Source of the DNA: Planctomycetota bacterium | GTDB lineage: Bacteria > Planctomycetota > MHYJ01 > JACQXL01 > JACQZI01 | DNA length: 64,000 bases | Reading direction: 5' to 3' | Assembly: GCA_016207825.1 (NCBI GenBank) | Contig: JACQZI010000014.1 | Location: 3,183-67,182 of the forward strand | Part shown: positions 15,032 to 64,000 of the stretch, piece by piece | Numbering within the stretch: the first letter of the stretch is position 1 | Layout of the letters: each line of letters begins with the position of its first letter | Translations under genes and position numbers: made by a program | Notes under the pieces: generated by a model | Seen by the model: the letters and a program-made list of their open reading frames with translations, nothing else | The model's database searches: none | What the model was told of the DNA's origin: nothing

Positions 15032-15133
15032 TTAGACCTGGGAAACTTTCACCTCCAAGAACAGTTGCCCGTTCTCTTTGATGAAATTAAGGTGGCTTGC
15101 GCCGTCCGGAGTAAAGCGATTTAGCTCTAACCC
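15032..15133 (-). pseudogene. C-terminal remnant of a homologue of the 49103 gene
   Basis: The minus strand encodes a short frame ending 'GQLFLEVKVSQV' and a stop. It aligns with the last 34 residues of the protein at 49103-49900 (ending 'GQLFLSVKVSQV'), including 'GASHLNFIKENG' against 'GASHLDFVKDNG'. Upstream of about 15133 the similarity is lost and I see no start. This is the 3' scar of a deleted gene, still followed by its terminator. It shows that this orphan family once had a second member on this chromosome. Confidence 0.75.
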
Positions 15134-15237
15134 CTTATTTATTAATACCAATCATTCTAATTATCCGAAGTATTTACTGCGGAAAGAACCATATCAATCT
15201 GAGCCCTATAAACTTTGGAACAGCTAAAGATTTCGCA

Positions 15238-15470
15238 CCCCACCGGACAGATAAACACACCCCCCTCTACCCATCCCCCCTATACCCCCTCCCCACCCCC
15301 TTTATATCTTCTACCCTACCCCTATCTGGAGTATGCCGAGATTCTATTTAAGGGGAACAAAATAGCCTATTCATCCCGAAGCCGGGATGGCTACCCCCTC
15401 TACCCACCTCCCCTATACTCCCCTCCCTACCCCCATTCGGGGGGAGTAGAAAAACTGGAATAGGGGGTGC
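15238..15470. repeat. C/T-rich low-complexity tract
   Basis: Long runs of C interrupted by T, A and 'TAC', for example CCCCCCTATACCCCCTCCCC. The strand asymmetry is strong (homopyrimidine on +). A proline-rich 82-codon frame (15215-15463) exists only because CCC and CCT codons abound and has no ribosome site, so I do not call it a gene. Confidence 0.6.
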
Positions 15471-37034: not shown

Positions 37035-37109
37035 TAAAAACCTGATAGCCCGGAGCGGCAGCGAGTGCGTCCCCGGAATTACACGAACTAATGAACTTAC
37101 ATTAATTTA

Positions 37110-37138
37110 TTGCCAAACTTCCCATTAAAACGTAAAAT
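37110..37138 (+). promoter_or_regulatory. Promoter of the SIR2-like gene (duplicated promoter, copy 1)
   Basis: TTGCCA (37110-37115), 17 bases beginning AACTTCCC, TAAAAT (37133-37138). Nearly identical in boxes and in the first eight spacer bases to 39492-39520. About 200 bases of leader, including GC-rich hairpins, separate it from the start codon. Confidence 0.6.
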
Positions 37139-37337
37139 CCGAATAATTAAGAAAGCGACCAAAGAGAGCCCCGACCCAACATGGCCCTCGTATCCCGAAG
37201 GGAGAAGGGGGTGGCTTCGGGGGCGTCCCCCGAAATGTAAGAGTAGAATCGGGAATTGAGTAAGATTCATCCTGCCGCCTTTAGCGAGCCTCGCCTATGG
37301 CGGGAGCGGAGTCGAAGGGGTGTCACCGGAATTAAGA
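37139..37337. other. Long GC-rich leader of the SIR2-like gene
   Basis: No gene. It contains GC-rich inverted repeats (around GGGGGCGTCCCCC at 37219-37231, and GCCTCGCC...GGCGGGAGC near 37285). Such elements recur in other spacers of the window; here one appears inserted between a promoter and its gene. Confidence 0.45.
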
Positions 37338-39275
37338 ATGAATTCATCATTTCATACAATCTGTATAGGTGAAGATATACAATCATATGATAGTTTGGTT
37401 AAGGAAACTTCCGCTGAGTTTCAAAAACGTAATGTGCTTCTTTTTACCGGTGCTGGCATTTCCACAGGAGAACCTTCGTCTCTTCCACTAGCAGTTGAAC
37501 TTATTAAACCATTGGTTTCAGAATTTAAGAAAGCAACTCAATTATTTCCCGAATTAAATAAAATCGACTCAAAAGATAAAAATCTGGCGTTCGCCACGCT
37601 TGAAGAAGCCAGATTGGAACGTCTTCTTGACGCACTCTACCGTGTTTATAAAGAACCGGCTTTAGATTACATTTCTGTTCTAAATGGCGACGAATGCAAT
37701 ACCAATCATAATGCAATTGCCGCATTGGCAAAAAATAATTTCCTACCCGTTTGCATAACCCTTAATTTTGATTTGCTAATTGAAAAAGCAGTGGGGTCTT
37801 GTGAAATTGAATGTCCATTATCGACCCCCTCAAAAATTCCTTTTGGCACATCGAACCCTATTCTTAGAGTAATAAAACCGCATGGCACTTTTACTGAAGG
37901 CGATGACCCATATAAATATCTTGCGGCAACATTGTCGGATATCGGTTCCGAACCGGCATATAATACCATTAGGGTAATTTCGGATGCAATCGATAAATCC
38001 AGTGTCTTGCTGGTAGCCGGTTATAGCGATGATGATTGGGATATTTTCCCTATTCTCGTAAAAAAAACTAGTTCTGCTAAGAGACTAAAGAAAATAATAT
38101 GGGTTCAATATATCAGTCCTAAAACTATTGAACGACGAAAAGCAGGACTAGATGAAATTTCAGAGAGAGTTTATAATTGGCTTAGTAATTCAAATATAGA
38201 AGCTGTTATTCTTATTGGAGACATTAGGCAATTTCTTATTGATACACTTGAATCTTTATCTATTACGATATCACAGCCTAAGGGTGGAGTGAAAAAACAC
38301 CCAGATATCGCACCATTCAAAGCCGATAATGATCCGAATAATGCTCAATCAATAAAAACCGCATTAGCACTGGCTTATATTATTCATCAAACAGGAGAAT
38401 ATAGTGAAAAACTTCTTTGGTTGTTGCATAATAACTCAATAATAAAAAACACACCTCATTTATTATGGCAGGTTGAAGATTTGCTTGGGCATATGTACCA
38501 TACTTATGGCAAGTTAGAGAGAGCTATTCGTCATACAAAACAAACTATATCAGCCAAACAACACCCAGAAGTTGAATTATCTGTTGCTAAAGATATTGTT
38601 TGGCTTGGGTATGAATATTTATGCCTTTCGAAAAGGCCCAATCCGCTCCGACCGCTTCGACTTATTAAAATCCCATATTGTATTTTCAAGGGTATGTATT
38701 TACTTAAGAAAGGAATTTCCTTAGCCAAAACAAATGAAGAAAGGAAAAGCCTTAAGGGACTGGCCGCATATTATCGAGTGGATCTATTGCATAGCTGGGG
38801 AAATATTTTAATGCTTTTTGGGTGTTATACCGTACGTATTTTTGCTTTTTATTTCCGTTGGATTGAATCGTTATATAGCGATATCGATAAGAATTTTGAT
38901 GTAATGAAAACGGCCTACTATTGGTTGCGTCATTTAGAGACAAAATTGCTTGGTAGAAAATTTATTGATAAAAAAGAGCTTAAAGAAATAAAGGATAGGC
39001 TTGATGAATTACAAATTCAGAACGACTTAGTGCAAAACAATCCTCAATCCGGGAATACGCGTGCTTATCGAGCTTTGCTTTATTATCTGATTGATCATAA
39101 TATGGGTAAGGCTAAAGAGGAAATAAACGGGTCTGACAAAGAATGGAGAAAAAAGTGTAAAGGAATAGCATCTGGTTGGAGACGCACTGTGCTTTTTAAA
39201 CGATTTATTGGTTTGAAAAAACCGACTTTTCTTGATGCATTATGGTTGTTCCTAAAAGAAGCTGATGCTACCTGA
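37338..39275 (+). CDS. SIR2-like NADase-type domain protein, probable defence protein
   Basis: About 645 residues from the ATG at 37338 (GTG at 37320 is an in-frame alternative). The N-terminal 300 residues are a SIR2_2-like fold: 'VLLFTGAGISTGEPSSLP' near residue 33, 'PVCITLNFDLLIEKA' near 140, 'RVIKPHGTFTE' with the conserved His, and 'SVLLVAGYSDDDWDIFPIL'. The C-terminal half is helical and TPR-like ('LLGHMYHTYGKLERAIRHTK'). SIR2 domains joined to helical sensors act in several anti-phage systems by depleting NAD. AT-rich and in the accessory island; the same promoter type drives the next gene. A specific system could not be assigned. Confidence 0.8.
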   Translation: MNSSFHTICIGEDIQSYDSLVKETSAEFQKRNVLLFTGAGISTGEPSSLPLAVELIKPLVSEFKKATQLFPELNKIDSKDKNLAFATLEEARLERLLDALYRVYKEPALDYISVLNGDECNTNHNAIAALAKNNFLPVCITLNFDLLIEKAVGSCEIECPLSTPSKIPFGTSNPILRVIKPHGTFTEGDDPYKYLAATLSDIGSEPAYNTIRVISDAIDKSSVLLVAGYSDDDWDIFPILVKKTSSAKRLKKIIWVQYISPKTIERRKAGLDEISERVYNWLSNSNIEAVILIGDIRQFLIDTLESLSITISQPKGGVKKHPDIAPFKADNDPNNAQSIKTALALAYIIHQTGEYSEKLLWLLHNNSIIKNTPHLLWQVEDLLGHMYHTYGKLERAIRHTKQTISAKQHPEVELSVAKDIVWLGYEYLCLSKRPNPLRPLRLIKIPYCIFKGMYLLKKGISLAKTNEERKSLKGLAAYYRVDLLHSWGNILMLFGCYTVRIFAFYFRWIESLYSDIDKNFDVMKTAYYWLRHLETKLLGRKFIDKKELKEIKDRLDELQIQNDLVQNNPQSGNTRAYRALLYYLIDHNMGKAKEEINGSDKEWRKKCKGIASGWRRTVLFKRFIGLKKPTFLDALWLFLKEADAT

Positions 39276-39491
39276 ATGTTGATAGTCACCACGCTTTGGA
39301 GCACACTTTTCCAAAAACAGCCTTGTTCTCTTGAAACAGGCACCTATCCCTGAAATCCTTGATTTTCTCTATCCACAAAGCTCTTTTTCTCAATTCCGGA
39401 GCGAAGCGACTTCCCCGCGGAACATAGTGACGTCCCTTTAGGGAAAGCGTAGCCAGGTGGGATTAATCAATCAACTAATTAACTAATATTA
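39276..39491. other. Spacer between SIR2-like and HhH-like genes
   Basis: No gene seen. Contains a GC-richer patch (about 39401-39460) of the dispersed intergenic type, flanked by AT-rich DNA. Confidence 0.4.
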
Positions 39492-39520
39492 TTGCCAAAC
39501 TTCCCTTCGAATAGTAAAAT
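39492..39520 (+). promoter_or_regulatory. Duplicated promoter, copy 2 (before 39570)
   Basis: TTGCCA (39492-39497), 17 bases beginning AACTTCCC, TAAAAT (39515-39520), then GGTAATTAAG. Matches the promoter of the SIR2-like gene and suggests duplication and joint control. Confidence 0.6.
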
Positions 39521-39569
39521 TCTTGGTAATTAAGTAAAACGTCCCCCAAAAGCACGGAATTATAACGAA

Positions 39570-40148
39570 ATGTCTAACAAATTAAAGAATTTAGCCAGGA
39601 TTGTTGAGTGGTATAAGAAGAGAGCTCGTTTCAATCCTGACGATTATTCTAACGGTTCACTTGAAGAACGTATTAGAAAGATTTATACATTTCCCCACCA
39701 GCGGAGGGTTAAAAAATCAGTTAAAGACAGAGTAAAGAAAAAGCTATTGCGCAATGCAAAAGCAATCAATAAATGTAAAGACTTTAATTCTCTTTATAAC
39801 ATAGTTGAGGAAAACAGTGTAAAGGGGTTTGGGGACTTATCTATTTACGATACCACTATGATGATTGGCTTCCGCAAAGGAATCCTTCCTGATAAAGTCT
39901 ACTTACATCGTGGGACGCGTAGGGGGGCGGAAATATTACTAGGAAGGCAGCTAAGTAAAACTTCCTGTCTTTTAACAGATGAATTAGATATCTTATTACG
40001 GAAACTAAAACCATACCAAATAGAAGACCTTTTGTGTATCTGTAAAGACGATTTTAAACTCAGGAAAGTTACAAGCGCTATATTGAACAAACGCCACGGC
40101 GAAAGAACATGTGTTGTAAAAAAGAAAACTAAGCGAAACTCTTGCTAA
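39570..40148 (+). CDS. Hypothetical protein, possible helix-hairpin-helix domain
   Basis: 192 residues, very basic at both ends ('HQRRVKKSVKDRVKKK' and a Lys/Arg-rich tail). The middle 'GFGDLSIYDTTMMIGFRKGI' continuing 'LPDKVYLHRGTRRGAEILLG' resembles an HhH-containing glycosylase-like domain seen in small uncharacterised proteins (recollection, not a search). I infer nucleic-acid binding from this and the charge. No signal peptide or membrane segment. It lies in the AT-rich island between the SIR2-like gene and the GHKL operon, with its own promoter. Confidence 0.65.
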   Translation: MSNKLKNLARIVEWYKKRARFNPDDYSNGSLEERIRKIYTFPHQRRVKKSVKDRVKKKLLRNAKAINKCKDFNSLYNIVEENSVKGFGDLSIYDTTMMIGFRKGILPDKVYLHRGTRRGAEILLGRQLSKTSCLLTDELDILLRKLKPYQIEDLLCICKDDFKLRKVTSAILNKRHGERTCVVKKKTKRNSC

Positions 40149-40170
40149 AAACATAAAATCAAAGTAGAAT
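40142..40170 (+). promoter_or_regulatory. Promoter of the GHKL/receiver operon
   Basis: TTGCTA (40142-40147), 17 bases, TAGAAT (40165-40170), about 55 bases before the ATG at 40226. The boxes resemble those of the two promoters upstream in the island (TTGCCA/TAAAAT). Confidence 0.5.
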
Positions 40171-40225
40171 TTAGGCGTTGATGAAAATCCGAGATTTGTT
40201 AGAATAACCGATTTAAAATACGCAT

Positions 40226-42505
40226 ATGGAGAAATTTAAGTTTACAGTTGATAGTGCTTTGCTCAGTGAATTGGGGGAAAAATTAGTCGAATTTCCTCAC
40301 ATTGCTTTGGTTGAATTAGTTAAAAATGCTTATGACGCCGATGCAACACGGGTAGATATAAAGTTTATTGAGCAAAAAACAGGTGCCCCAGAAATCCATA
40401 TTATCGATAATGGACATGGCATGACATTAGATGATGTTAAAAATTATTGGATGAGGATTGCCACAACAAATAAAATCAAGAATAATTATTCTCCATTATA
40501 TGGTCGTCCTAAGACAGGAGAGAAAGGTATTGGACGATTTGCTTGTCGACGGTTAGGATTGCATTTAAAGCTTATTACAATTGCAAAATCAACTGGGAAT
40601 AACTATGAAAGGACAGAGGTTGAATTTCTGTGGGACCATTTTAAAGCCGGGAAAGAAGTTACAGAGATAGAATGCCCGGGGAAAAATGAAAAAATAAAAG
40701 ATGCGCAAACAGGAACCACTTTAATTATCAGTAAGGGGCAAAAAAATGAGTGGCAAAAAAGAGGTTATGACTTTGCAAAAAGACAATTCTGTTTGCTTGC
40801 TATTAATAGAGGCGAAAAAAGGAAAGGGTTTGCAGAAGACCCAGGCTTTAATATTTTTATGACTTTTCCACAAATGGAAGGTACAACAGAAGCGATTGAT
40901 ATGCGTCAACAAGTTATTTCAGGTGGTTGGGGGGTGCTTAAAGGACATGTTGATAGTAAAGGTAACGCAACTTATACCCTAGATGCATTAGATATTGGGG
41001 AAAGAACTTTTAAGAGCTCTGAGGAATACACAAACCTAAAAGACGTCACAATGGAAATAGGAATAATTCCCGGTAGTAGAAAAGACCAATATAAAGACCC
41101 AAAACTATTAAAAGAAGAATACAAAAATTCAAATTTGCTAAAAGATTGGGTAGTTAAAAACTTCTTAGATGATTGGGGTGGTGTTCAGGTTCGTTTCAAA
41201 GGATTTAGGGTTTATCCCTATGGAGATGATGATTGGCTGGATATTGATAGGGATAGAGCACTAAGCAAAGGAGCGTCAGAATCCAAGGAGCTTGAAAAGG
41301 TTGTATACACCTTCAATAATGTAGTACTTCCTAGCCGTTATTTACTTAGTTTGCTTTCGATGCGTAGTTATGTTGGTTCGGTTAATATTGGTGAAGGTGC
41401 GACCGGATTTGAGATGAAAGCCAGCCGAGAAAAATTTGTAGATTCAAAAGCAACTGAAGAATTAAAGAATTTCGTACGGTATGGTATTGATTGGGCAACT
41501 ATTCTCAGGGATTATTACAAAAGATTAAAAGAAACGAGTAGTTCAGAAAAAGCTGCTGAAAAACTAGGTGAAGTAATCGGCAAAAAAGTAGGCCCGGAAA
41601 AAGTTGTTGAGGCCGCTACCGCCTATCTAAAACAACAAGTTGATAGCATATCCAATCTATTACCAAAGAATAAGAGAGAAGAATTAGAAAAATCCATTCC
41701 AGCGATAACGAATTCTATTTTAAAATATGACAAATTGAAAACTGGTGAATTACATCACTTAAGATTAGTGGCCTCAACTTCTACACTGCTAAATATTTTT
41801 GCTCATGATGTAAAATTATTCACTGGTTCATTAAGTTCCAGTCGCGTAAAATTAAAAGATCTCGAAGATAGAGTTTCTGCCAAGGACAAAGAATTCATTA
41901 AAGAAATACGTAATGGTTTAAATGATTCTAAAAAAAGATTTAATGATCTTTTAGAAATGACAGCTCTTATTGGCACGGAAAATATATCCACACCGCCTCA
42001 GCAATTAGCACTGTTTGATAGAATCGAATCAGCCGAAAGATGCTTTAAACCAATATTAGATGAATATCATATTAAAATTAATTATGATCAAGTCCCCAAA
42101 AATTTATTGGTCGGTCCAATGTTGGAAGGGGAATTATATGCGATTCTTCTTAATACTCTTTCTAATTCAATTAAGGCTGTGATAGCTGAGGGACAAAACA
42201 AAATAATTGAAATTGCGGCTACAATGGTCGAGAAAAAAGCTAAACTAAATATTCGTGACAGTGGAATTGGATTAGATGAAAATCATTTTGATGATGTTTT
42301 TATTCCTTTTATTGCTGATCCTACAAATAAGCTATACAAGGAATTAGAGAAAAAAATTAATCCCAGGGATAAATATATTGTGGGGATGGGAAGTGGTTTA
42401 GGATTAAGTATCGTTAAAGATATCGTAAAATTACGTAAGGGGGAAATCAGATTTGTGAAACCAACAGGTAACTGGAAAACCGATTTGGAGGTTATTTTAC
42501 CATGA
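40226..42505 (+). CDS. Double GHKL protein: Hsp90/MORC-like ATPase fused to histidine kinase core
   Basis: 759 residues. N-terminal GHKL ATPase: 'ALVELVKNAYDADATRVDI' (about 28-46), 'HIIDNGHGMTLDDV', 'TGEKGIGRFACRRLG' (about 97-111), as in MORC/Hsp90/MutL-like proteins. A long middle region follows. From about 510 there is a kinase-like helical pair with 'LNIFAHDVKLFTGSLS' (candidate phospho-His near 526) and a second GHKL domain: 'ILLNTLSNSIKAVI', 'NIRDSGIGLDENHFDDVFIP', 'GMGSGLGLSIVKDIVKL'. No membrane segment, so it senses an intracellular cue. Its stop overlaps the start of the receiver gene (ATGA). Likely a sensor kinase of an unusual cytoplasmic signalling or defence unit. Confidence 0.85.
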   Translation: MEKFKFTVDSALLSELGEKLVEFPHIALVELVKNAYDADATRVDIKFIEQKTGAPEIHIIDNGHGMTLDDVKNYWMRIATTNKIKNNYSPLYGRPKTGEKGIGRFACRRLGLHLKLITIAKSTGNNYERTEVEFLWDHFKAGKEVTEIECPGKNEKIKDAQTGTTLIISKGQKNEWQKRGYDFAKRQFCLLAINRGEKRKGFAEDPGFNIFMTFPQMEGTTEAIDMRQQVISGGWGVLKGHVDSKGNATYTLDALDIGERTFKSSEEYTNLKDVTMEIGIIPGSRKDQYKDPKLLKEEYKNSNLLKDWVVKNFLDDWGGVQVRFKGFRVYPYGDDDWLDIDRDRALSKGASESKELEKVVYTFNNVVLPSRYLLSLLSMRSYVGSVNIGEGATGFEMKASREKFVDSKATEELKNFVRYGIDWATILRDYYKRLKETSSSEKAAEKLGEVIGKKVGPEKVVEAATAYLKQQVDSISNLLPKNKREELEKSIPAITNSILKYDKLKTGELHHLRLVASTSTLLNIFAHDVKLFTGSLSSSRVKLKDLEDRVSAKDKEFIKEIRNGLNDSKKRFNDLLEMTALIGTENISTPPQQLALFDRIESAERCFKPILDEYHIKINYDQVPKNLLVGPMLEGELYAILLNTLSNSIKAVIAEGQNKIIEIAATMVEKKAKLNIRDSGIGLDENHFDDVFIPFIADPTNKLYKELEKKINPRDKYIVGMGSGLGLSIVKDIVKLRKGEIRFVKPTGNWKTDLEVILP

Positions 42506-43014
42506 AGAAAAAAATGATATTTTTATGGATAGAAGACAATCAAAAACGTCAAGCTGATTATGCAAGGACTTTGGAAAATAAATCTTTTAGAGGTATCCCA
42601 AAGGCCGAAATTGATTTTAAATTAGTTAGAGGGATGGATATAAAAGAAGTATTAGATGGAATAACCAAAGCATATAGAAGAATACCCCCCAATCTTATTA
42701 TTATAGACCATTTTTTGGATAATATTAAAGGCGGTTTTATAGAAGACAACAAGACTAATGGTACCTCTATAGCTTTGCTTCTAAGAGAAAAAGGATTAAA
42801 TTGCCCCATTGTTGGAATAACAACCGCTGCAAATATACGCAGGATCCCTATTTCTAATAATACTAAAGATATATATGATGATTTTATAGATGCCGATGAC
42901 TTTGAGGAATATTTCGAGGATATTTTTGTTCTGGCAAATGCATTTAGAGTTTCGAAAAAAGTCCCCTCCGATAAGTCTAGGTTTTTAGGCTTATTAAAAA
43001 CCCAAAACAATTAA
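42502..43014 (+). CDS. Atypical response-regulator receiver protein (5' part of a frameshifted gene)
   Basis: 170 residues before a stop. Receiver features: acidic pair Glu11-Asp12 ('FLWIEDNQK'), phosphoacceptor Asp69 in 'LIIIDHFLDN' and Thr in 'VGITTAAN'. The usual C-terminal Lys is not visible ('YDDFIDADDFEEYF'). The gene starts inside the kinase stop (ATGA overlap). The frame ends at 43014, but a -1 frame continues without a stop from 42981 to 43517. One extra A in the five-A run at 42996-43000 would join them into a 338-residue protein. I regard this as one gene with a frameshift, natural or from sequencing. Confidence 0.8.
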   Translation: MKKKMIFLWIEDNQKRQADYARTLENKSFRGIPKAEIDFKLVRGMDIKEVLDGITKAYRRIPPNLIIIDHFLDNIKGGFIEDNKTNGTSIALLLREKGLNCPIVGITTAANIRRIPISNNTKDIYDDFIDADDFEEYFEDIFVLANAFRVSKKVPSDKSRFLGLLKTQNN

Positions 43015-43517
43015 GAGAACAATTAATACAAGTACTGCCTACTGATTTAAGTTCAAGCTGGCTATCAACTCTATACAAATGGGTCAGAAATAGTTTTTTT
43101 GGTAAACCAGGATTCCTATATAATAAATTGTGGGCTGCAACCTATCTCGGTTTAAATGAAAAAGGTTTTGAGAAAGTAGAAAATATTTTTAAGGATGCAA
43201 AATATGAAGGGATCTTTGCAAACACGTCAAAACCTCGTTGGTGGCCAATGAAAATCAAGGATTTATTGTATCAAAAGATTCACGAAAAGCATAGCGGTCT
43301 AACATGGGAACTTGGGCATTTTTTAACCCCGCCAATCACTAAGAATGATTTTTCTAAATGTTATGTTTGTGAAAAAGATTATCCAGAAATCGTGGGATAT
43401 ACAGATGAATCATTAAAAAAACAATATCCCATGCATATTAGATGCTCAGAACCGATTGTTAATCTCGAAAAAGATATGTTCTTTGAAGAGAAACGAAAGC
43501 AAAAAAGGAAAAAATGA
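42981..43517 (+). CDS. C-terminal zinc-ribbon-like part of the frameshifted receiver gene
   Basis: An open frame directly continuing the receiver gene after a one-base shift; the first ATG-independent residues read 'NPKQLREQLIQVLPTDLSSS'. The first usable ATG of its own would be an internal TTG/ATG near 43128-43247 without a ribosome site, so separate translation is unlikely. It contains 'RWWPMKIKDLLYQ', 'LTWELGHFLTPPI' and a Cys/His set 'CYVCEKDYPE' ... 'MHIRC' that could bind zinc. The tail is Lys-rich. Its stop overlaps the next start by ATGA, which again argues that the three genes were one translationally coupled operon. Confidence 0.7.
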   Translation, partial: VFRLIKNPKQLREQLIQVLPTDLSSSWLSTLYKWVRNSFFGKPGFLYNKLWAATYLGLNEKGFEKVENIFKDAKYEGIFANTSKPRWWPMKIKDLLYQKIHEKHSGLTWELGHFLTPPITKNDFSKCYVCEKDYPEIVGYTDESLKKQYPMHIRCSEPIVNLEKDMFFEEKRKQKRKK

Positions 43518-44227
43518 GCATAAATACCACATTTCCTACGCCGGTTAAATTAATCCAAGAAGAAATAAAAACACTGAAGTTCTTGATGAATCAAACAAGA
43601 ATATCACAGTTTTGTGGCGATGCCGGAAGGGCATACAGTGTATACAATAAATACCCTCAATTGATCCGAAAAAATCAACTAAAAAACTTTAACTTTTATT
43701 TTAATACATTTTTCGATGTTCCTTGCGCTGATATTGGTTTAACTCTACGAATATTTGTAAATGCAGATGTTAAAATACAAAATAACAGTTATGAAAAAGT
43801 GTGTTATCATTTAATAGTTACGAAAAAAGCCAGAAGGAGCCAGGAAGAACTACGTTACACATTATTTAGAAATTTTCATTTTGACTATAATCCTAAAGCT
43901 AATGAAAGTGGACATCCATTTTTTCATTTACAGTACGGAGGAGGAACGGGTCGCTCGTTCGGGGCCGAATATGCAATTAACATCACTTTTCCAAGTATAG
44001 ATTTGCCTCGTATCTCTTATAAGCCCATGTCATTAGCATTATTAATGCAAATAGTTTTTATGCATTTTTATGATGAAAATGTTGTAAAACTACGTGAAGA
44101 CAATGATTGGAAAAGCATTCTATGGAATAATGAACAGCTATGCTGGAAAGACTACTATGCTGAATGTTCTGCTTATTTAAATTCAGAGGAAAAACATATA
44201 CTTTGTAATCATTTCTGCGGGAAATAA
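43514..44227 (+). CDS. Hypothetical protein, third gene of the GHKL operon
   Basis: 237 residues, no signal peptide, no membrane segment. The start overlaps the previous stop (ATGA). The most distinctive stretch is 'FRNFHFDYNPKANESGHPFF' followed by 'HLQYGGGTG', a His/Asp/Gly-rich pattern in a predicted beta region that might be a binding or active site. I do not recognise the family with confidence. Being last in an operon with sensor-kinase-like and receiver-like proteins, it is a candidate effector. The convergent methyltransferase gene ends 21 bases away. Confidence 0.7.
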   Translation: MSINTTFPTPVKLIQEEIKTLKFLMNQTRISQFCGDAGRAYSVYNKYPQLIRKNQLKNFNFYFNTFFDVPCADIGLTLRIFVNADVKIQNNSYEKVCYHLIVTKKARRSQEELRYTLFRNFHFDYNPKANESGHPFFHLQYGGGTGRSFGAEYAINITFPSIDLPRISYKPMSLALLMQIVFMHFYDENVVKLREDNDWKSILWNNEQLCWKDYYAECSAYLNSEEKHILCNHFCGK

Positions 44228-44248
44228 ACTTACTTTAACTAAAACTGC

Positions 44249-45565
44249 TTAGTATTTATAATAACCATTCCAAAGCGGTAATTCTTTCAATGCAGTAACT
44301 GTAAGATGTCGACACCTTATTCTTTTATCTAACCATTTTGTGGTTTTATCGCATTTTAGACTGTTAGTTAACTTCTTACACTCACTAAGTAATTTATTAT
44401 ATGGAGTCAGTACTATTAAATGATTCTCAGCCGCAACCTTCTTTTTACCGGCAATTATTGTTGATATAATGCGCTTTTTTTCGTCCGGTCTAGATGTTCT
44501 GCGAATAACAACAAATGGAGGAGAGAAAAGTTTTCCGGAGAATTTACGATAGTTTTTAAATCTTTTAACAATTCCGTCTTTAGGTAATTCGCGAGCAAAA
44601 ATATATCTGCATTTTAAACCCTTTTTAATGTCTCTATGTGGGACAACAGCTCCGACATTAACATCAAATAAATCCTTAACCCGTTTTTTAGATTTAATTC
44701 TCGGCAAAGCCCAAAAACCTTTTCTTTTATTTCCTTTATCTTTCTTCACAGTTAAATGCAATATAAAGACATCAATATCGGTCAATTTATCGAATTGCCC
44801 CACAACTTCTATCTTAGTTATTTTTGCCAGCGAAGAAATTAGTTTTCTCCATTTTTCATATCGTGAGCCAGTCCTTAAAACATCTGGTAATATTGCAGAA
44901 ATATGACTTCCTGAAGGGTTAGAAGTGAGACATTTTTCAATAAAAACCGCTGCAGTTGAAACCTTTCCGCATGCCCAAGTACATCCATTTGGTGCCTTCA
45001 TCATTGTAAAGGGAGGATTAATTAAGATATGCTTCTTTTCTTTGGGTTCATTAGTTATTGAAAGAAAATTACCAGTTTGAATAAAAGGAAATGTATTAGA
45101 TAACAAACAAGGATTTTCTTTATTTACAGGAAGCCCGCGCAAAATTGCCAATAATGCAAGTCGAATCTTTGTTAGATGGACAAGTTCAGGGTAAATATCA
45201 TAGCCTCTAATCTGTTTCCCCCAATTTGTTAAAGTAGTTTTAAGGTCGTTGCCCAAGGGTAATCTTGCCGCATATGCTACAAGTAAATCTCCGGCACCGC
45301 ATGCGGGGTCAAGTATCGTCAATTTATTAGAATAATTATTGAAAGGGATTTTACATGTTTGTTTTGCTAGTTCCTTACCGGTAAAAAATATGCCTGATGA
45401 TTTTTGAGTATTTAAATTAACTAAACGACGTAACTCTCTACTGGGTTCCCCATTTAGAGCGGCAAAAACTTGTTTGTTATGTGTTTTATTTAGATTACGA
45501 AAGGAATCAAGAAGTAATGTTTCTGTGTTTCTAACATAACTTTTAAATTGATTAAGGTGATTCAT
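44249..45565 (-). CDS. N6-adenine DNA methyltransferase (HsdM-like)
   Basis: About 438 residues from the ATG at 45565 (an in-frame start at 45586 is less likely). SAM-binding motif I 'LTILDPACGAGDLLVAYAA' near residue 90, catalytic motif IV 'HILINPPFTMM', and a C-terminal part resembling a target-recognition region ending 'HLTVTALKELPLW'. 'QKSSGIFFTGKELAKQTC' before motif I is typical of type I/IIG methylases. No restriction subunit or specificity subunit is recognisable beside it, so it may be an orphan or work with the convergent operon. AT-rich like the island. Confidence 0.87.
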   Translation of the reverse strand: MNHLNQFKSYVRNTETLLLDSFRNLNKTHNKQVFAALNGEPSRELRRLVNLNTQKSSGIFFTGKELAKQTCKIPFNNYSNKLTILDPACGAGDLLVAYAARLPLGNDLKTTLTNWGKQIRGYDIYPELVHLTKIRLALLAILRGLPVNKENPCLLSNTFPFIQTGNFLSITNEPKEKKHILINPPFTMMKAPNGCTWACGKVSTAAVFIEKCLTSNPSGSHISAILPDVLRTGSRYEKWRKLISSLAKITKIEVVGQFDKLTDIDVFILHLTVKKDKGNKRKGFWALPRIKSKKRVKDLFDVNVGAVVPHRDIKKGLKCRYIFARELPKDGIVKRFKNYRKFSGKLFSPPFVVIRRTSRPDEKKRIISTIIAGKKKVAAENHLIVLTPYNKLLSECKKLTNSLKCDKTTKWLDKRIRCRHLTVTALKELPLWNGYYKY

Positions 45566-45624
45566 AACAGACCGCCTGACAAACACATGGTCTTTCTAAG
45601 AATAAGGAATAAATGTTTATCGGA

Positions 45625-45653
45625 ATTATACGATGGTTAGAATATAAAAACAA
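45625..45653 (-). promoter_or_regulatory. Promoter of the methyltransferase gene
   Basis: Minus strand: TTGTTT (45648-45653), 17 bases, TATAAT (45625-45630), with about 52 bases of leader to the ATG at 45565. Confidence 0.5.
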
Positions 45654-45798
45654 TATAATCACTATATAAACCATCTAGATATTTAGCTAATCCGGGGACA
45701 GCTAATCCGGGGACACGTACTAATTTCCGTTTAATTCGTTGCTTGAATTTCCCCGTCTTCTACTTCCCGTTTTTCCGCAAAGGTAGTATCAATACGCC

Positions 45799-46128
45799 AA
45801 AGAGGTAGTACTCCACTCGTCTAGGGCTAATACTCCATTCGTCTAGTGTCAGTATAGCATTCGTCAAGGGGCGGTATACGATTCGTATATAACCGGTACT
45901 GCATTCGTCTAGTGTCAGTAGACCATTCGTCAAGGGTTAGTAGACGATTCGTCAAGGGTCGGTACAACATTCGTATATGACCGGTACCCGATTCGTCAAG
46001 GGTTGGTACACGATTCGTCTAGGGTCACTATAGCATTCGTATATGACCGGTACCCGATTCGTCAAGGACCGGTACGGCATTCGTCTAGGGCCGGTATTCG
46101 ATTCGTATATAACCGGTACACCATTCGT
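45799..46128. repeat. 22-bp tandem repeat array 1, fifteen units
   Basis: ATTCGT recurs at exactly 22-base intervals fifteen times (ends at 45820, 45842, 45864 and so on to 46128; the first unit has ACTCGT and no unit gains or loses a base). The 5' four bases of each unit are one of three types (CTAG, CAAG, ATAT), followed usually by GGTCGGTAC or ACCGGTAC and two or three variable bases. The unit starting ATATGACCGGTACCC occurs twice unchanged. A degenerate unit may precede at 45777. 22 bp is not a multiple of three, so this is not coding, and there are no spacers, so it is not CRISPR. Confidence 0.95.
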
Positions 46129-46499
46129 TTAGGGGGTGAGATACCGATTCAGGCGTGATATATATAAACCAGAGGGGGGGAGTAGATACCCCCTCCATCC
46201 CGCCTTGCGACTAGAGGAAGGGCGGGATTCCGGGGACTGTAGCCCCCTCCGTCCCTTGAGGGACTTCGGGGACGCCAAATCAATTGTATTATAGCAGGGA
46301 CAGCCCCCTCTCTATTCCTTCGGGGACTATAGACAGCAGTCATCCCGTGAGGGATAGCCCCCTATGCTATCCCCCATAATTTTTAAAATGTAAAATTTCT
46401 TTATAATTTTGTAAACTATTTTTACACTAATTTGGCTAAAAAACAAGCTATAAAGGCAAACAGTCGGATAAAAACGTTTTAAACGGCCTTTCGGGCGGG
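46129..46499. other. Spacer with GC-rich dispersed motifs then an AT-rich block
   Basis: 46140-46370 holds several copies of a short motif of the type GGGGACTRTAG next to CCCCCT runs, also seen at about 13755 and 14920. 46376-46450 is AT-rich with GTAAA/TTTAC repeats. No gene is credible; minus-strand open frames here are repeats. Confidence 0.5.
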
Positions 46500-46516
46500 T
46501 TGGCATGGAAATTGCT
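46500..46516 (+). promoter_or_regulatory. Sigma-54-type -24/-12 promoter
   Basis: TTGGCATGGAAATTGCT fits the consensus YTGGCACG-N4-TTGCW with one mismatch (T for C), and GG and GC are separated by the required ten bases (46502-46503 and 46514-46515). It points at the frameshifted gene beginning at 46676. The 22-bp array lies 370-700 bases upstream, where enhancer-binding sites for sigma-54 activators are usually found. Confidence 0.6.
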
Positions 46517-46540
46517 ATATAAGTAGTATGCAGTGCCACC

Positions 46541-46620
46541 TTTACGGCTAATAGGCCGTAAAATGGAAAGTACCCGTATCCCGTACGGCGAGAATGGGAA
46601 TTGCCCCGGCATTCGCCGGG
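46541..46620 (+). repeat. Hairpins in the leader of the frameshifted gene
   Basis: TTTACGGC-TAATAG-GCCGTAAA (46541-46562) and CCCGGC-ATTC-GCCGGG (46605-46620) are perfect stems in the presumed 5' untranslated region. They could regulate translation or simply be dispersed palindromes. Confidence 0.55.
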
Positions 46621-46675
46621 ACGCCCGATTGATACTACGTCGAATGGGCGGGACGGAAAGAAGGTGATTTTACGT

Positions 46676-47201
46676 ATGGTGTACGCACCGCTTTTATGAC
46701 TCTAACGACTACGATGGGGACGACGAATACTCCTATCAGGACGAACTTGATAACAAGTTCTTCCACGGGAAACCTTCAAACCAAAAACACCGCTTTACAT
46801 TAAAAGACATCGTATTTTTAATCGCCCGCCTTTCCAACCCTCGTGATGATAAACTGCCCCTTATCCAGGATTATTACATAATAGATTGCAAAGGAAGCAC
46901 CCTTTGCCGAAAATACCGCATAAGGCGCAAACGACTCGCCGGATTCCTTAGAAAAGTAAAACGGGAGTATAACTGGCTGGTCCACCGCCATGAAGGCGAA
47001 TTAATCCCCTTTTCCTTTAAGGAAATCATCTGCCTGGTCGGGCGCATCACCATTTCGTTATCCCCATGTGAAATACGCTGGTCTCAGGGTTATTATGATA
47101 CGGACGGCGACTGGCGAAAGACCTGCGAGAAGTGCAGCATACCCAAAACCACCCTTTTCCGCTTTTTAAGGTGTAAAATACGCCAGGCATTCCTTAATTA
47201 G
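46676..47201 (+). pseudogene. Frameshifted gene for a protein with two repeated HTH-like domains
   Basis: The ATG at 46676 has a good ribosome site (AGAAGGTG) but reads only seven codons to TGA. One base less in the TTTT run at 46692-46695 would join it to a long stop-free frame to the TAG at 47201, about 175 residues in all. The protein is basic and internally duplicated: 'FTLKDIVFLIARL' ... 'LAGFLRKVKREYN' is echoed by 'FSFKEIICLVGRI' ... 'LFRFLRCKIRQAF', each about 60 residues and resembling DNA-binding helical domains. It follows a sigma-54-type promoter and the 22-bp array, so it may once have bound that array (inference). No ATG-started long frame exists here. Confidence 0.65.
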
Positions 47202-47540
47202 CGGCTTTTTCTCTCTCCCCGCTACGTTGCCCCCTACCCCATGCTTCGGGGACTCCCCCCACCTACGCCATGGCTACGGGGGGACGACCAATATATCCTT
47301 GGGTAGGGTCAGCCTATTAATATTACGCAGAATGGGGCACTTAGGGGACGCTCATATTATATTTATTATTGTAGGAGCAGTCATTCCCACTTTGTCCCCA
47401 CGCTAAAAACACCCTCTTTCCAACTCCTTTTATTTTAAGCCATTGGAAACAGGCTCTTTTTCTCCATTCCCAAATGCGGGAATAATTCCATAAGGATGGA
47501 GGGACAAACGAATGGCGAATAGCGAATTCGGAATGTTGAA
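47202..47540. other. Gene-free stretch
   Basis: GC-rich motifs of the dispersed type at 47215-47300 (runs of CCCC, GGGGACTCCCCCC) and then mixed sequence. No convincing gene on either strand; a minus-strand open frame at 47341-47652 has no ribosome site or protein-like composition. Confidence 0.45.
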
Positions 47541-47563
47541 GTCCTCCAAAGGAGGGTAGAAAG

Positions 47564-47959
47564 ATAAGAAAAATTGAAGCCATCCCGTTAGAACGGGACG
47601 TCACTGACGTTCCGAAACACCCTGATGAACTGACCACCTTTGAGTTCATCAACAGGCACCTTTACCAGAGGGCGCTAAAAGGCGCTTACCGGAATGAATT
47701 AGAGCTGGTTAAGGAACGGCTATCGCCTTCGCTGGATTCGTTCAAGGACGCGGAGGAGTTTATGAAGGCAATGCGGAAAGATCATGACCTTAAGGAAAAA
47801 ACCGTCCGGGAACTGAAACAACTCTGGAAAAAGGACTATGACCTCAGGCCCGCGACAGGCGTAATCCTGATGCTGGCATTGTGGATTAATGCCCCAGCTG
47901 CCAGTGAGAATTACTGGTATAAATTGTTTGTCGGGCTGGAAGAAGGAGGTGAAGCATGA
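47564..47959 (+). CDS. Hypothetical helical protein, apparent ATA start
   Basis: An open frame begins at an in-frame stop near 47540 and runs to 47959. AGGAGGG lies eight bases before an ATA codon at 47564, exactly where an ATG would be expected; the first ATG is not until 47762, with no ribosome site. From the ATA the product is 131 residues, highly charged and helical ('ELTTFEFINRHLYQRALKGA', 'EEFMKAMRKDHDLKEK'), with a hydrophobic 'GVILMLALWINA' near the end. Its stop overlaps the protease ATG (ATGA), so the two were coupled. Either ATA is used or the start has been lost. Function unknown. Confidence 0.55.
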   Translation: MRKIEAIPLERDVTDVPKHPDELTTFEFINRHLYQRALKGAYRNELELVKERLSPSLDSFKDAEEFMKAMRKDHDLKEKTVRELKQLWKKDYDLRPATGVILMLALWINAPAASENYWYKLFVGLEEGGEA

Positions 47960-48168
47960 AACGCGTAATGTTTATAATAATCTTAGGGATTTTGGGAATC
48001 GGGCTGACAGCATGGGCGACTAAGCCGCCCGAACTCCCGCCGGATGTGATAATCATCCGCCCCTTATCTACTAAGGACAACCCATATCAATGGGAATATG
48101 ATGAAATGCTTAGCCCGACAGTAAGAATCACAACTGCCAATGGAATAGGGTCTGGCGTTGTGATTCAG

Positions 48169-48239
48169 AGTTCAATAGTTTCAAAGTTTAATAGTTCAAA
48201 AGAAACTCTTGAACAGTTGAACAATTCAACGGTTGAACT
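48169..48239. repeat. Repetitive palindromic insert in the protease gene
   Basis: Short alternating copies of AGTTCAA and TTGAACT (AGTTCAA at 48169 pairs with TTGAACT at 48233; GTTCAA...TTGAAC forms an inner hairpin). The segment stays in frame and encodes an Asn/Ser/Glu/Leu-rich insert just before the catalytic His block. Confidence 0.6.
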
Positions 48240-48787
48240 TTACGTTTTGACTGCTGCTCATGTGGTTGGGAATTACGCCAAGGTAGATGTGACATTCTAC
48301 GATTATAGCCACGAAGGCACTAAGACACTAAGCGCTTCTGTAGTTATTACGGATACGCTTAAAGATTTGGCATAGCTTAGTCTGAAAGCTGACAACTATA
48401 ATCTAAAAACTGCTGCGTTAGCAGATAGGGATTATCAATATTATCTGTTTGCCCCTGTTTATGTCGTTGGTTGCTCGTTAGGTTTATCTCCAAGACCGTC
48501 TTCAGGAATCATCTCGGCTATTAACTTTGATTCGGTGGAAGTTTCCGCGCCTATCTTACCCGGTAATTCCGGTGGTCCGGTTTACACGGCAGATACGCAC
48601 GAGTTAATCGGTATCGCAGTATGGGTTCGGTTATGCGGTAATCAACTTGTTACTACCATGGCGGGTATCGTGCCCATCTCGGAAATATACGATTTCCTGG
48701 ATTCAGCCACCAAGACTCTAAGACACCAAGAAAAACTTAGTGACTTTGTGCCTTCGTGGCAAATAAACCACAGGAAGGAGTTAGACT

Positions 48788-48880
48788 ATGCTGAAAGTAA
48801 TGTCGAGTTTCTGGCTGGGTGTGGTCAGGGCGGTTATCAAAATCGTTTTGGCTCTCATCCGGAAGAAAATAGAAAAATAA
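48788..48880 (+). CDS. 30-residue hydrophobic peptide with strong ribosome site
   Basis: AGGAAGGAG (48772-48780) lies seven bases before an ATG opening 30 codons: 'MLKVMSSFWLGVVRAVIKIV' then 'LALIRKKIEK' and TAA. It is a single hydrophobic helix with a basic tail, typical of small membrane peptides or type I toxin-like peptides. It is in a different frame from the protease remnant. The ribosome site is among the best in the region, which suggests real translation. Function unknown. Confidence 0.5.
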   Translation: MLKVMSSFWLGVVRAVIKIVLALIRKKIEK

Positions 48881-49102
48881 TCGCCACTCATAGGCAGTTA
48901 CAGGCGTTAAGGGGTACTGTGAACTCTTTGGCGCAACTGCGTATAGAGAGCGTTAAAAATATAGCCACGCCCCTTACCTGTTGGAAGGGACTCCCTATTA
49001 TTCGGGTGTCCCTGAAGTGCAACGGAGCGGGGGAAAAGCACAGAAGTCCCCCGATGTCATCTCGGGGGGCTCTGTGTCTCTGTGGCAAAAGGAGAATGTA
49101 AG

Positions 49103-49900
49103 ATGAGTATCACAAGAATATGGATAAAACTGGCTATCAACCCGCTGACACAGGCAGTGCCTAAAATGGCAGAGCTCTGGTCAGAGGGCTTGACCGGTAA
49201 CGCGGATAAGCTGATTGAACGCCTTAAGGCGGTCATCCCTGACGAAATGTCCTATCTTTCCAAGATGGCGGAACCTGCCGAGCAGGCATACCAGAATGTG
49301 CTTGACCCGGCTTTTGTCAGCCGGAGAGGCAAGAACAAGTCCAAAATAAATGCCAGCCAGGCATATAAAATCAAACGGGCATGGGCAAAATACCTGCGGA
49401 ACCTGGACCATGCGTTTGAGACCGTTGACGGCGTCACCGCCAAGCGGTTCAAGGATAATGTTATTGCCGCCAAGGAAGATTATGCCGAAAGGTTGAGCGA
49501 AAGCACGCTTGCCCTGACAGGCATTAAGGCCCTGGAATCCGGTCCCGCAAGGATTGCGGTTTATTGGCTGTCCGGCGACTCCAAAGCCAAAGGGATGATG
49601 AGGGCGGCAGACCTCTACATGGCGCCGAGCGAACCCTTTAACGTCACCACGGCGGAAAAGAAGAATTCGCTCCGGGTGCTTTTGATTTCCCGGCTCATAC
49701 AGGGCGGTATATCAATCATCCAGGGTGGAATGGGCATGCCCCTAATAACGGAAGTCAATACCCTCTTGAACTCGCTGGTTCAGGGGATGGTTGACCCGGC
49801 ATTGGGGCTGGAAAGCTTTGCTCCGGGCGGTGCTTCTCACTTGGACTTCGTCAAGGATAACGGACAGTTGTTTTTGTCTGTTAAGGTTTCTCAGGTATGA
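49103..49900 (+). CDS. Hypothetical protein of an orphan family
   Basis: 265 residues from the ATG at 49103 with AAGGAG ten bases upstream (a GTG in frame at 49082 overlaps that site). The protein is helical and basic in the first 130 residues ('KINASQAYKIKRAWAKYLRN'), then has a Gly-rich amphipathic segment 'LIQGGISIIQGGMGMPLI' and a C-terminal 'GASHLDFVKDNGQLFLSVKV'. No known domain recognised and no signal peptide. The same C-terminus occurs as a remnant at 15032-15133 on the minus strand, proving a family. Neighbours are broken genes, so its context is accessory. Confidence 0.65.
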   Translation: MSITRIWIKLAINPLTQAVPKMAELWSEGLTGNADKLIERLKAVIPDEMSYLSKMAEPAEQAYQNVLDPAFVSRRGKNKSKINASQAYKIKRAWAKYLRNLDHAFETVDGVTAKRFKDNVIAAKEDYAERLSESTLALTGIKALESGPARIAVYWLSGDSKAKGMMRAADLYMAPSEPFNVTTAEKKNSLRVLLISRLIQGGISIIQGGMGMPLITEVNTLLNSLVQGMVDPALGLESFAPGGASHLDFVKDNGQLFLSVKVSQV

Positions 49901-50271
49901 ACTATACCCCTACGCTGCCCCTCACGGGATATCTGCTGATTACGCTACGGGTACGCCTGATTATGTAACTGTTGTAGAGCCGAGTGAGCCAGGTATAAGC
50001 TACCATGATGAGTTGGTCCCCGACCCTGCTTTGTGGGGTCGGGGAGGCTCATTCGCACGGACGTCTTTATATTATGTTGGGACACTCTCTTTCCTTATCG
50101 CGGAGGGATTTCCTTGCATTTCTCAATGATTATGATAGATTAAGCCGCTAAATGAGTGACCCACACACCTAAAAACCATAAGTATATACAATTGATTGAA
50201 TGGTTTTAGGTCTGGGGTTTCGCTCCATGAAATCTAATACTATAAAAAGGCACTAATGTAAATGGAGCTCA
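49901..50271. other. Spacer with hairpins
   Basis: CCCCGACCC/GGGTCGGGG forms a 9-bp stem at about 50019-50044. ACCTAAAAACCAT (50167-50179) and ATGGTTTTAGGT (50200-50211) form an imperfect inverted repeat around an AT-rich loop just before the zinc-ribbon gene. An overlapping open frame to 50129 starts inside the previous gene and is not credible. Confidence 0.45.
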
Positions 50272-50547
50272 ATGTCAACAAATGATACTGATTTTACCTG
50301 CCCGCACTGCGGGACTAATCTGCCCGCCAATGCCACCTCCTGCAAGGAATGCGGCTCGGATAAATCCACCGGCTGGGCTGAGGATGCCGCTGATTCCGGC
50401 ACGGATATCCCCTCCCAATTCACCGACGCGGATTACGACGACTTCGTCAAGAAAGAATTCGGACGGCCTTTCCTCCTCAACCCCTGGTTCATCATAACAA
50501 CCTTTATAATACTATTATTGATTTTCTTGATGATATTCTACCGATAA
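50272..50547 (+). CDS. Small zinc-ribbon protein with C-terminal membrane helix
   Basis: 91 residues. A rubredoxin-like zinc ribbon at the N-terminus ('CPHCGTNL' ... 'CKECGSDK'), an acidic linker, and a hydrophobic helix at about 70-89 ('WFIITTFIILLLIFLMIFYR'). Tail-anchored topology with the ribbon in the cytoplasm is likely. It precedes galT, whose promoter lies inside its last codons. Function unknown; such proteins are frequent in planctomycetes. Confidence 0.72.
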   Translation: MSTNDTDFTCPHCGTNLPANATSCKECGSDKSTGWAEDAADSGTDIPSQFTDADYDDFVKKEFGRPFLLNPWFIITTFIILLLIFLMIFYR

Positions 50548-63146: not shown

Positions 63147-63761
63147 ATGGAACCAGAAAAAAAAGGCGGGGCAATAATGTTCCACAAGATATTGGGAACA
63201 ATCATGCTTATCTGTTCCCTGGTTTTGGCTTTGCAGGCAACCGCAATGATAATGCTTTCTGATAATGACCGGATAGAAATACTCCGAGGCGCGGGCAAGA
63301 TGTACCGGGCAAGCCATGAATACGGCCCTCTTGAAAGAGCGCCTACAGATGAAGAAATAGAAGAAAGGCTCGTCTCGCAAAGAGAAAGCCTGCTGGCAGA
63401 AAGCAAGAAAGATAATTTCACACCGATTGCCATGAAGTTTCTTTTCTCCTTGATTCTTCTGGTAACCGCAGCGGGATTATTTATGAACAAACGAAATCCC
63501 ACTAAAGTATTGGCAACGATTATGGCTATCCTCTTAACAATAGCAATGTTAGCCAAGTTTAAGGAATTCATAAGCTATTCGGAACTTTACAAACACGTTT
63601 CTTTATCGTCCATTACGCTTAAGCTGTTGTTTTTTACGGATAAGGCAATGCTTTTGGCGATTCCGCTGGCGTTTCTTTCCTGTCTTATTACAGCGATAAA
63701 ACCTCCGGCTTTGCCGGAAGGGCAAAAGCCGATTTCCGCGGACGAAGCGCAGGTAAAATAA
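63147..63761 (+). CDS. Small membrane protein, unknown
   Basis: 204 residues with AGGAG before the ATG. Four hydrophobic helices (about 14-33, 95-112, 118-136 and 165-185) and a Lys/Glu-rich loop between the first two ('RLVSQRESLLAESKKDNFTP'). The C-terminus is cytoplasmic and acidic. No recognised family. Divergent from the thiolase pair; followed by a spacer and the second 22-bp array. Confidence 0.7.
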   Translation: MEPEKKGGAIMFHKILGTIMLICSLVLALQATAMIMLSDNDRIEILRGAGKMYRASHEYGPLERAPTDEEIEERLVSQRESLLAESKKDNFTPIAMKFLFSLILLVTAAGLFMNKRNPTKVLATIMAILLTIAMLAKFKEFISYSELYKHVSLSSITLKLLFFTDKAMLLAIPLAFLSCLITAIKPPALPEGQKPISADEAQVK

Positions 63762-63824: not shown

Positions 63825-64000
63825 ATGGAGTCCCTCCGCATCTGAGATGGAGTCCCACCGCACTTAAGATGGGGTCTCTCCGCATTTGAGATGGAGTCTC
63901 TCTGCATTTGGAATGGAGTCCCTCCGCATTTGGGATGGGGTCTCTCCGCATTTAAGATGGAGCCTCTCTGCATTTGAGATGGGGTCTCACCGCATCTGAG
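63825..64000. repeat. 22-bp tandem repeat array 2, eight units to the window end
   Basis: ATGGRGTCYC followed by TCCGCATTTGAG (22 bases in all, minor substitutions) repeats eight times with no length change, the eighth unit ending on the last base of the window, so the array continues beyond. Variation is mostly transitions (A/G, C/T). No open frame is preserved because 22 is not a multiple of three. Same period as array 1 (45799-46128) but a different sequence. Confidence 0.95.

Follow-up and report, generated by a model that had tools for sequence, protein, structure and literature searches.

The window, by which we mean the whole 64,000-nucleotide stretch of DNA analysed, belongs to a Planctomycetota/Brocadiia MAG of 42 contigs (G000). 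Its central feature is a tandem array of 15 head-to-tail 22-bp units, which directly adjoin each other with no indels and are framed by a leader and a cap hairpin (Table 1). As the first-pass annotation had described, the hexamer ATTCGT recurs in exact 22-bp steps without slippage. It occurs 14 times between 45837 and 46123, and unit 1 carries ACTCGT instead. Reading out the units also confirmed the three classes named there, which are defined by variable positions (CTAG, CAAG and ATAT), and the unchanged repetition of one ATAT unit, ATATGACCGGTACCCGATTCGT, as units 9 and 12. The identity of the array with itself at lag 22 is 0.68; 2000 shuffled versions average 0.25 (sd 0.025, maximum 0.34), and no other lag from 15 to 30 exceeds 0.32. 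An independent TRF run placed the array at 45808-46134 with period 22, 14.9 copies and 0% indels. A leader of the type TTTTCC(C)GC(A/G)..GGG also precedes the arrays at C22, C23, C7-247k and C69 of G001; four of the six occurrences of this motif lie near arrays against 0.1 expected, a weak association given the few cases. The cap hairpin starts 43 bp past the array and consists of a G7 arm, the loop AGTAGATA and a C5 arm. A nearly identical cap sequence follows the array at C22.

Table 1. Features of the window and their coordinates.
Feature	Coordinates	Strand	Remarks
Short degenerate 22-bp array	15238..15347	+	adjoins an F0 remnant (15035-15154, minus strand)
Variable island, 13.2 kb	37045..50296	+	holds the A array
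Leader (T-run + CCGCA + AAGG)	45770..45798	+	from the sequence listing; TTTTTCCGCA at 45770-45779, ahead of the array
22-bp tandem array, 15 units	45799..46128	+	A family; TRF consensus unit GTACACCATTCGTCTAGGGTCG
Cap hairpin	46172..46195	+	GAGGGGGGG-AGTAGATA-CCCCCTC
Conserved box	46386..46441	+	TGTAAAA...TTTTGTAAAC...TTTTTACAC; shared, by direct comparison, by three HTH copies (L037, L038, L041) upstream of their sigma-54-type promoter
Sigma-54-type promoter-like site	46500..46517	+	TTGGCATGGAAATTGCTA, a sequence match; also at L038 and L041, not at L039/L040
P0001, 174 aa	46676..47201	+	two four-helix HTH-like domains (residues ~40-104 and 114-173); structure model with pLDDT mainly 85-93 beyond the first ~40 residues
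Small ORF of the island module	47762..47959	+	related ORFs in the C7, C12 and C2 copies
Trypsin-like protease gene	47956..49101	+	split into two reading frames; intact copies in other modules
F0 family protein, ~265 aa	49088..49900	+	multi-copy, function unassigned; found only in this order
B-family 22-bp array	63825..64000	+	second in the window, unrelated to A; truncated at the contig end; complete copies at C7, C17 and C36

The gene downstream of the array, P0001, has four paralogues within G000, and G007 contributes two further homologues; these two were the only genomes with matches among the 392 of the phylum that were searched. The paralogues receive weak Pfam support (HTH_23/Sigma70_r4), and the fold search with the P0001 model returned only insignificant matches (best E about 1), among them the DNA-binding domains of sigma factors, NtrC4, DeoR and KorA. 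The gene has no in-frame start codon. A Shine-Dalgarno sequence with an ATG opens an ORF of 7 or 8 codons that ends in TGA or TAA, and the main ORF lies in the +1 frame. This start-less layout recurs in all seven copies from two bacterial families, with the motif GCACCGCTTTTATGAC in the G000 copies (window 46660-46720; L038-L043), and makes the gene start a candidate for an RF2-like programmed +1 frameshift. The module that follows the HTH gene is conserved and comprises the trypsin-like protease, the small ORF and the F0 protein. F0 occurs in 6 of the 392 genomes, all in this order, and its AlphaFold model (pLDDT 65) was too poor for a fold search. Downstream of F0 there is often a fibre-like protein with ~10-aa GAVT-x-KI repeats and a 30-bp period (L087, L088, L090, L096, L100, L101), and ECF-type sigma factors are encoded divergently from some F0 genes.

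Judged by GalT (93% identity), the closest sequenced relative is the MAG DeMMO3_52 (Candidatus Brocadiia, Planctomycetota), which matching coordinates identify as the G001 assembly. The A array sits on a 13.2-kb island, since positions 37,045-50,296 are missing in this congener, where the flanks lie 162 bp apart. Besides the HTH module, the island encodes a SIR2-domain protein and an N6 DNA methyltransferase, and sequence inspection points to a GHKL ATPase paired with a response-regulator-like ORF; this gene content is consistent with a possible defence island. The GHKL ATPase weakly matches restriction-enzyme models.

The array is one of many in its genome and not a one-off control region of the adjoining gene. 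G000 holds a second A-family array at C22 and 22-bp arrays of other sequence at C7, C17, C36 and C10. As a guard against search bias, 40 random stretches from five genomes of the order were sampled (~610 kb after masked bases). Period 22, a few cases of period 21 and their multiples dominate these stretches, and the remaining periods are rare. The counts are 8 arrays of period 22 and 3 of period 21 in 320 kb of G000, 5 and 1 in 200 kb of G003, one of period 22 in 40 kb of G001 and one of period 21 in 32 kb of G007. A noncoding 22-bp array occurs every ~30-45 kb in the random stretches of these four genomes, which leads to an estimate of 65-100 arrays per genome by extrapolation from ~11% of G000 and 7% of G003. 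Ten period-22 segments were present in a larger G001 sample of 412 kb, some of which had been chosen for its F0 genes. Outside the order, 213 kb (133 kb from other families of the class and 80 kb from other classes of the phylum) contained no noncoding 22-bp array, and neither did small samples of G002, G004 and G006.

TRF was also run on 1.4 Mb with the period not preset. Among ~49 arrays, 41 have period 22 or its double (39 and 2, respectively) and 7 have period 21 or its double (6 and 1). Beyond these periods, the run yielded three repeats of period 30 and one of 60, which are fibre-like coding repeats, and two of low quality. No 20-, 23- or 24-bp array appeared in this survey; another detector found one weak period-24 stretch. 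The period does not vary among unrelated arrays as it would in minisatellites. The period-21 arrays are mostly open in one frame and may be coding, and for this reason they were set aside and the class statistics were restricted to period 22. The period-22 arrays are all intergenic and usually have 8-20 units. Most of those sampled at random are flanked by housekeeping genes, with neighbours such as aminotransferase, HAD, DapB, DAHP synthase, Sua5, FeoB, protein kinase, ParB and other ordinary genes; no partner gene common to the arrays was found among the sampled neighbours. At L308 of G001, a 22-bp array (79-312) lies 30 bp from a parB gene (342-1181), a position in which it might serve as a partition site. 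The arrays show no consistent direction relative to genes, and their orientation is the same between the A copies and likewise between the B copies.

These surveys bear on the idea that the array is the target of P0001. Under this explanation, two HTH domains would match a 22-bp unit of two turns, the array would act as an iteron or operator controlling transcription, replication or transfer of the island, and the other arrays would be remnants of similar islands. The first-pass annotation had likewise considered this gene product as a possible ligand of the units, and the P0001 family is linked to arrays in all seven copies. All seven HTH genes have a 22-bp array nearby (degenerate 22-phased stretches at C12 and C2), six of them within ~1 kb, and by our own estimate from array density the chance is ~5% per gene. 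The seven arrays each differ in sequence and lie upstream of the gene in G000 and between the HTH and protease genes in G007. The absence of the island from the congener also fits, as does the excess of F0 genes near arrays (7 of 17 unbiased loci within 2 kb versus ~2 expected, again our own estimate and for array-rich genomes). However, G003 has abundant arrays and no HTH gene, the A-type array at C22 also lacks one, and randomly sampled arrays lie between housekeeping genes. Neither P0001 nor the neighbouring ORFs tested gave a replication initiator in Pfam or PHROGs, and GTDB220, IMG/VR, phages and plasmids contained no relatives by F0 or HTH protein or by array DNA. We consider this explanation quite improbable, and the HTH protein is at most a partner of the island arrays. 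The array as a private target of the HTH gene was rejected on the arrays without such a gene at paralogue loci and in random samples. F0 as a universal array partner was rejected as well, being enriched near arrays but missing from many.

The two known systems proposed in the first-pass annotation, iterons of plasmid origins and enhancer (UAS) arrays, do not hold for the class. The R6K plasmid, with its 22-bp iterons, exemplifies the former. Like plasmid iterons, the arrays described here are direct repeats of about two helical turns in exact helical phase, and they can lie near an HTH gene. In contrast to iterons, they occupy dozens of chromosomal loci with locus-specific units, up to 20 of them and divergent, next to housekeeping genes and without a Rep gene. 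The outcome that the first-pass annotation had named as refuting its proposal was obtained, since arrays occur at many unrelated loci between housekeeping genes with no common partner. The locus belongs to a chromosomal island, not to an episomal replicon; the congener has the empty site, and no phage or plasmid match was found. Regarding the UAS, the array does lie 370 bp upstream of the sigma-54-type promoter, a site found at three of the five G000 HTH copies at which promoters were read. However, its units lack dyads and other conserved boxes fit a UAS better. The TGTAAA/TTTTTACA boxes are the likelier activator or enhancer candidates because L038 keeps them though its array is ~2.5 kb away. 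A UAS role for the adjoining promoter is also at odds with the A-type array at C22 and the G003 arrays, which have no HTH gene beside them.

The spacing of the units is far more constant than their sequence. Across 40 arrays, 474 of 475 scorable units keep offset 0 and the remaining one is displaced by -1, without a permanent change of register, a count that is somewhat favourable because the array coordinates came from a period-22 search. In the same arrays, 27.7% of bases differ from the array consensus (~3,300 differences among the 475 units). Unit consensuses have a mean best-rotation identity of 10.5/22 compared with 10.2/22 for shuffles, and are unrelated beyond the A family (the window array and C22) and the B family (the window end, C36, C7, C17 and C10). 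From one intergenic gap to the next the unit sequence changes but the 22-base step does not, so spacing rather than sequence seems to be the conserved property. The proposal that constant helical phasing reflects a constraint thus gains support from units held in register and from period 22 dominating in unrelated arrays, and finds no support in the iteron or UAS form originally given to it.

Apart from spacing, two short elements recur. A cap hairpin of the type GGGG..GTA..CCCC or GGGG..TACCCC stands at one array end, and its strict pattern is found on 23 of 49 arrays versus 0.6% of random places, with the rest lacking a strict cap. A GGRTA/TAYCC core, which uses the same letters as the cap loop, appears in the unit consensus of 18 of 36 arrays, against a mean of 3.7 and a maximum of 9 in mononucleotide shuffles. 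Dinucleotide-preserving shuffles gave a mean of 9.9 and a maximum of 18, and because the observed number only equals this maximum, a shared core is suggestive. No dyad symmetry was detected in the units (z 1.8 over 41 consensus units), and neither 11-bp sub-periodicity nor half-site structure was found. It is established that these intergenic arrays form a class that is locked in phase, private in sequence to each locus, often capped by a hairpin and subject to turnover between species. Its members consist of a short leader, ~8-20 head-to-tail 22-bp units private to the locus and often a G-run/C-run hairpin with a GTA/TAC loop.

Leader and terminal hairpin resemble a transcription unit, which raises the possibility that the arrays act as RNA. 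Transcripts would start at the leader and have the G/C hairpin at their 3' end, and they would be processed into 22-nt pieces or bound one unit at a time. The constant orientation within the A and B copies would agree with this. However, the arrays fold no better than shuffles on either strand (z about 0 to -1.2) and have no Rfam match, results on which a structured RNA was rejected. The cap lacks a U-tract in the copies read, and array direction relative to genes is inconsistent. An action through RNA is therefore very doubtful.

Comparison between loci and between species, with one genome per species, shows how the arrays spread and turn over. Three B copies at unrelated loci (C7, C17 and C14/C36) have in common a ~345-bp unit bounded by the T-run leader and, shortly after the cap, by TGCCTT, with nothing shared outside, so the element was copied whole at least in this family, the one compared. 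Because their flanks adjoin in the congener, the C14 and C36 copies probably represent a single locus that the assembly has divided. Neither a target-site duplication nor terminal inverted repeats were visible by eye around the B copies. Within arrays, higher-order blocks of 44 and 66 bp and recurring blocks of units indicate duplication of whole units. The B array of the window, beside the gene at 63147-63761, is also absent from DeMMO3_52, with no clean or exact empty site, and conversely G000 lacks array L142 of G001 at the corresponding site. One locus carries an array in each of the two species, but the units differ: ATTAGTCCATACACCCACCCCA in G001, and degenerate ones resembling TTACGGTATATTCCCCAAAAGA in G000.

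Such turnover is what neutral or nearly neutral minisatellites would produce. A few ancestral hairpin-capped elements would have spread, diverged and been re-homogenised by slippage and unequal exchange in whole units, and the 22-bp length would be inherited rather than selected. Common descent with unit-wise homogenisation could keep the period constant without selection for helical phase. The dispersal of the B family as a unit, the repeated blocks typical of slippage and the gain and loss of arrays between sister species are in line with this account. In lake Planctomycetota MAGs, moreover, intergenic tandem repeats are a known source of structural variation, attributed to slippage (PMC9426551). 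Nevertheless, the near-absence of off-length units argues against homogenisation without function: one indel-like unit was found in 475 despite ~3,300 base differences, and apart from the weak period-24 stretch of the other detector the neighbouring periods are missing from the TRF survey. Units also share almost no sequence except the short GGRTA-like core. This main rival is, in our judgement, rather unlikely.

The arrays are probably protein-binding or DNA-shaping platforms, a function that we infer. The fuller statement, that the array in the window is a member of a lineage-specific class of dispersed intergenic elements acting as a phased DNA platform, is our leading and still tentative explanation, with a chance approaching even. 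A protein or protein filament would contact every unit on one helical face and would tolerate most sequence changes but no change in spacing. Because binding would have these tolerances, units would drift and be re-copied in register, and those of the wrong length would be lost. Such a platform would naturally serve to organise the chromosome, or act between genes as an insulator or control site. The island with the A copy would bring its own array and a two-HTH protein that may bind it; as a binding protein for the whole class this candidate fails, given its narrow distribution in the phylum and the G003 arrays. The lack of dyads and of an 11-bp sub-period counts against the platform, since a simple dimer site might show them. 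An extended version, in which a genome-wide system conserves the repeat length of 22 bp, or two helical turns, rather than sequence, and one machinery recognises or writes the arrays through phase, a minimal GGRTA-like core and the hairpin cap, appears unlikely.

Tandem repeats in bacteria are commonly regarded as products of slippage with an arbitrary period. Many arrays per genome with unrelated units, a locked period and a recurrent cap offer a natural experiment on selection for spacing alone, and a common binding factor, if one exists, would be a sequence-lenient, phase-reading DNA-binding protein. The presence of a lone array of this kind next to an HTH gene is no reason to take it for the operator of that gene. 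In the open-access literature searched, no fixed-period array class closer than the lake Planctomycetota repeats was found (PMC9426551). Those repeats are likewise noncoding, lie between genes and are rapidly gained and lost, but the available part of that source gives no fixed period, cap or locus-private units, whereas here the 22-bp period and a hairpin cap recur across several genera. Similar to CRISPR arrays, the elements combine a leader, a phased array and a single orientation; unlike them, they have no spacers and their units directly adjoin. With MITE, REP and BIME-type repeats they share a short intergenic element with a hairpin, copied whole to three loci in the B family. They differ from these in that the body is a 22-bp tandem array, no target-site duplication is apparent by eye and the units are mostly not conserved between copies. 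G000 also contains a REP-like dispersed 56-bp palindromic repeat, CCCCGCTCCACTTCGTGTCGGGGACACCCGATAATAGGGAGTCCCTGAATGGGGC, which is separate from the 22-bp arrays and occurs at ~30 places (L304:1077-1132; e.g. L314-L321).
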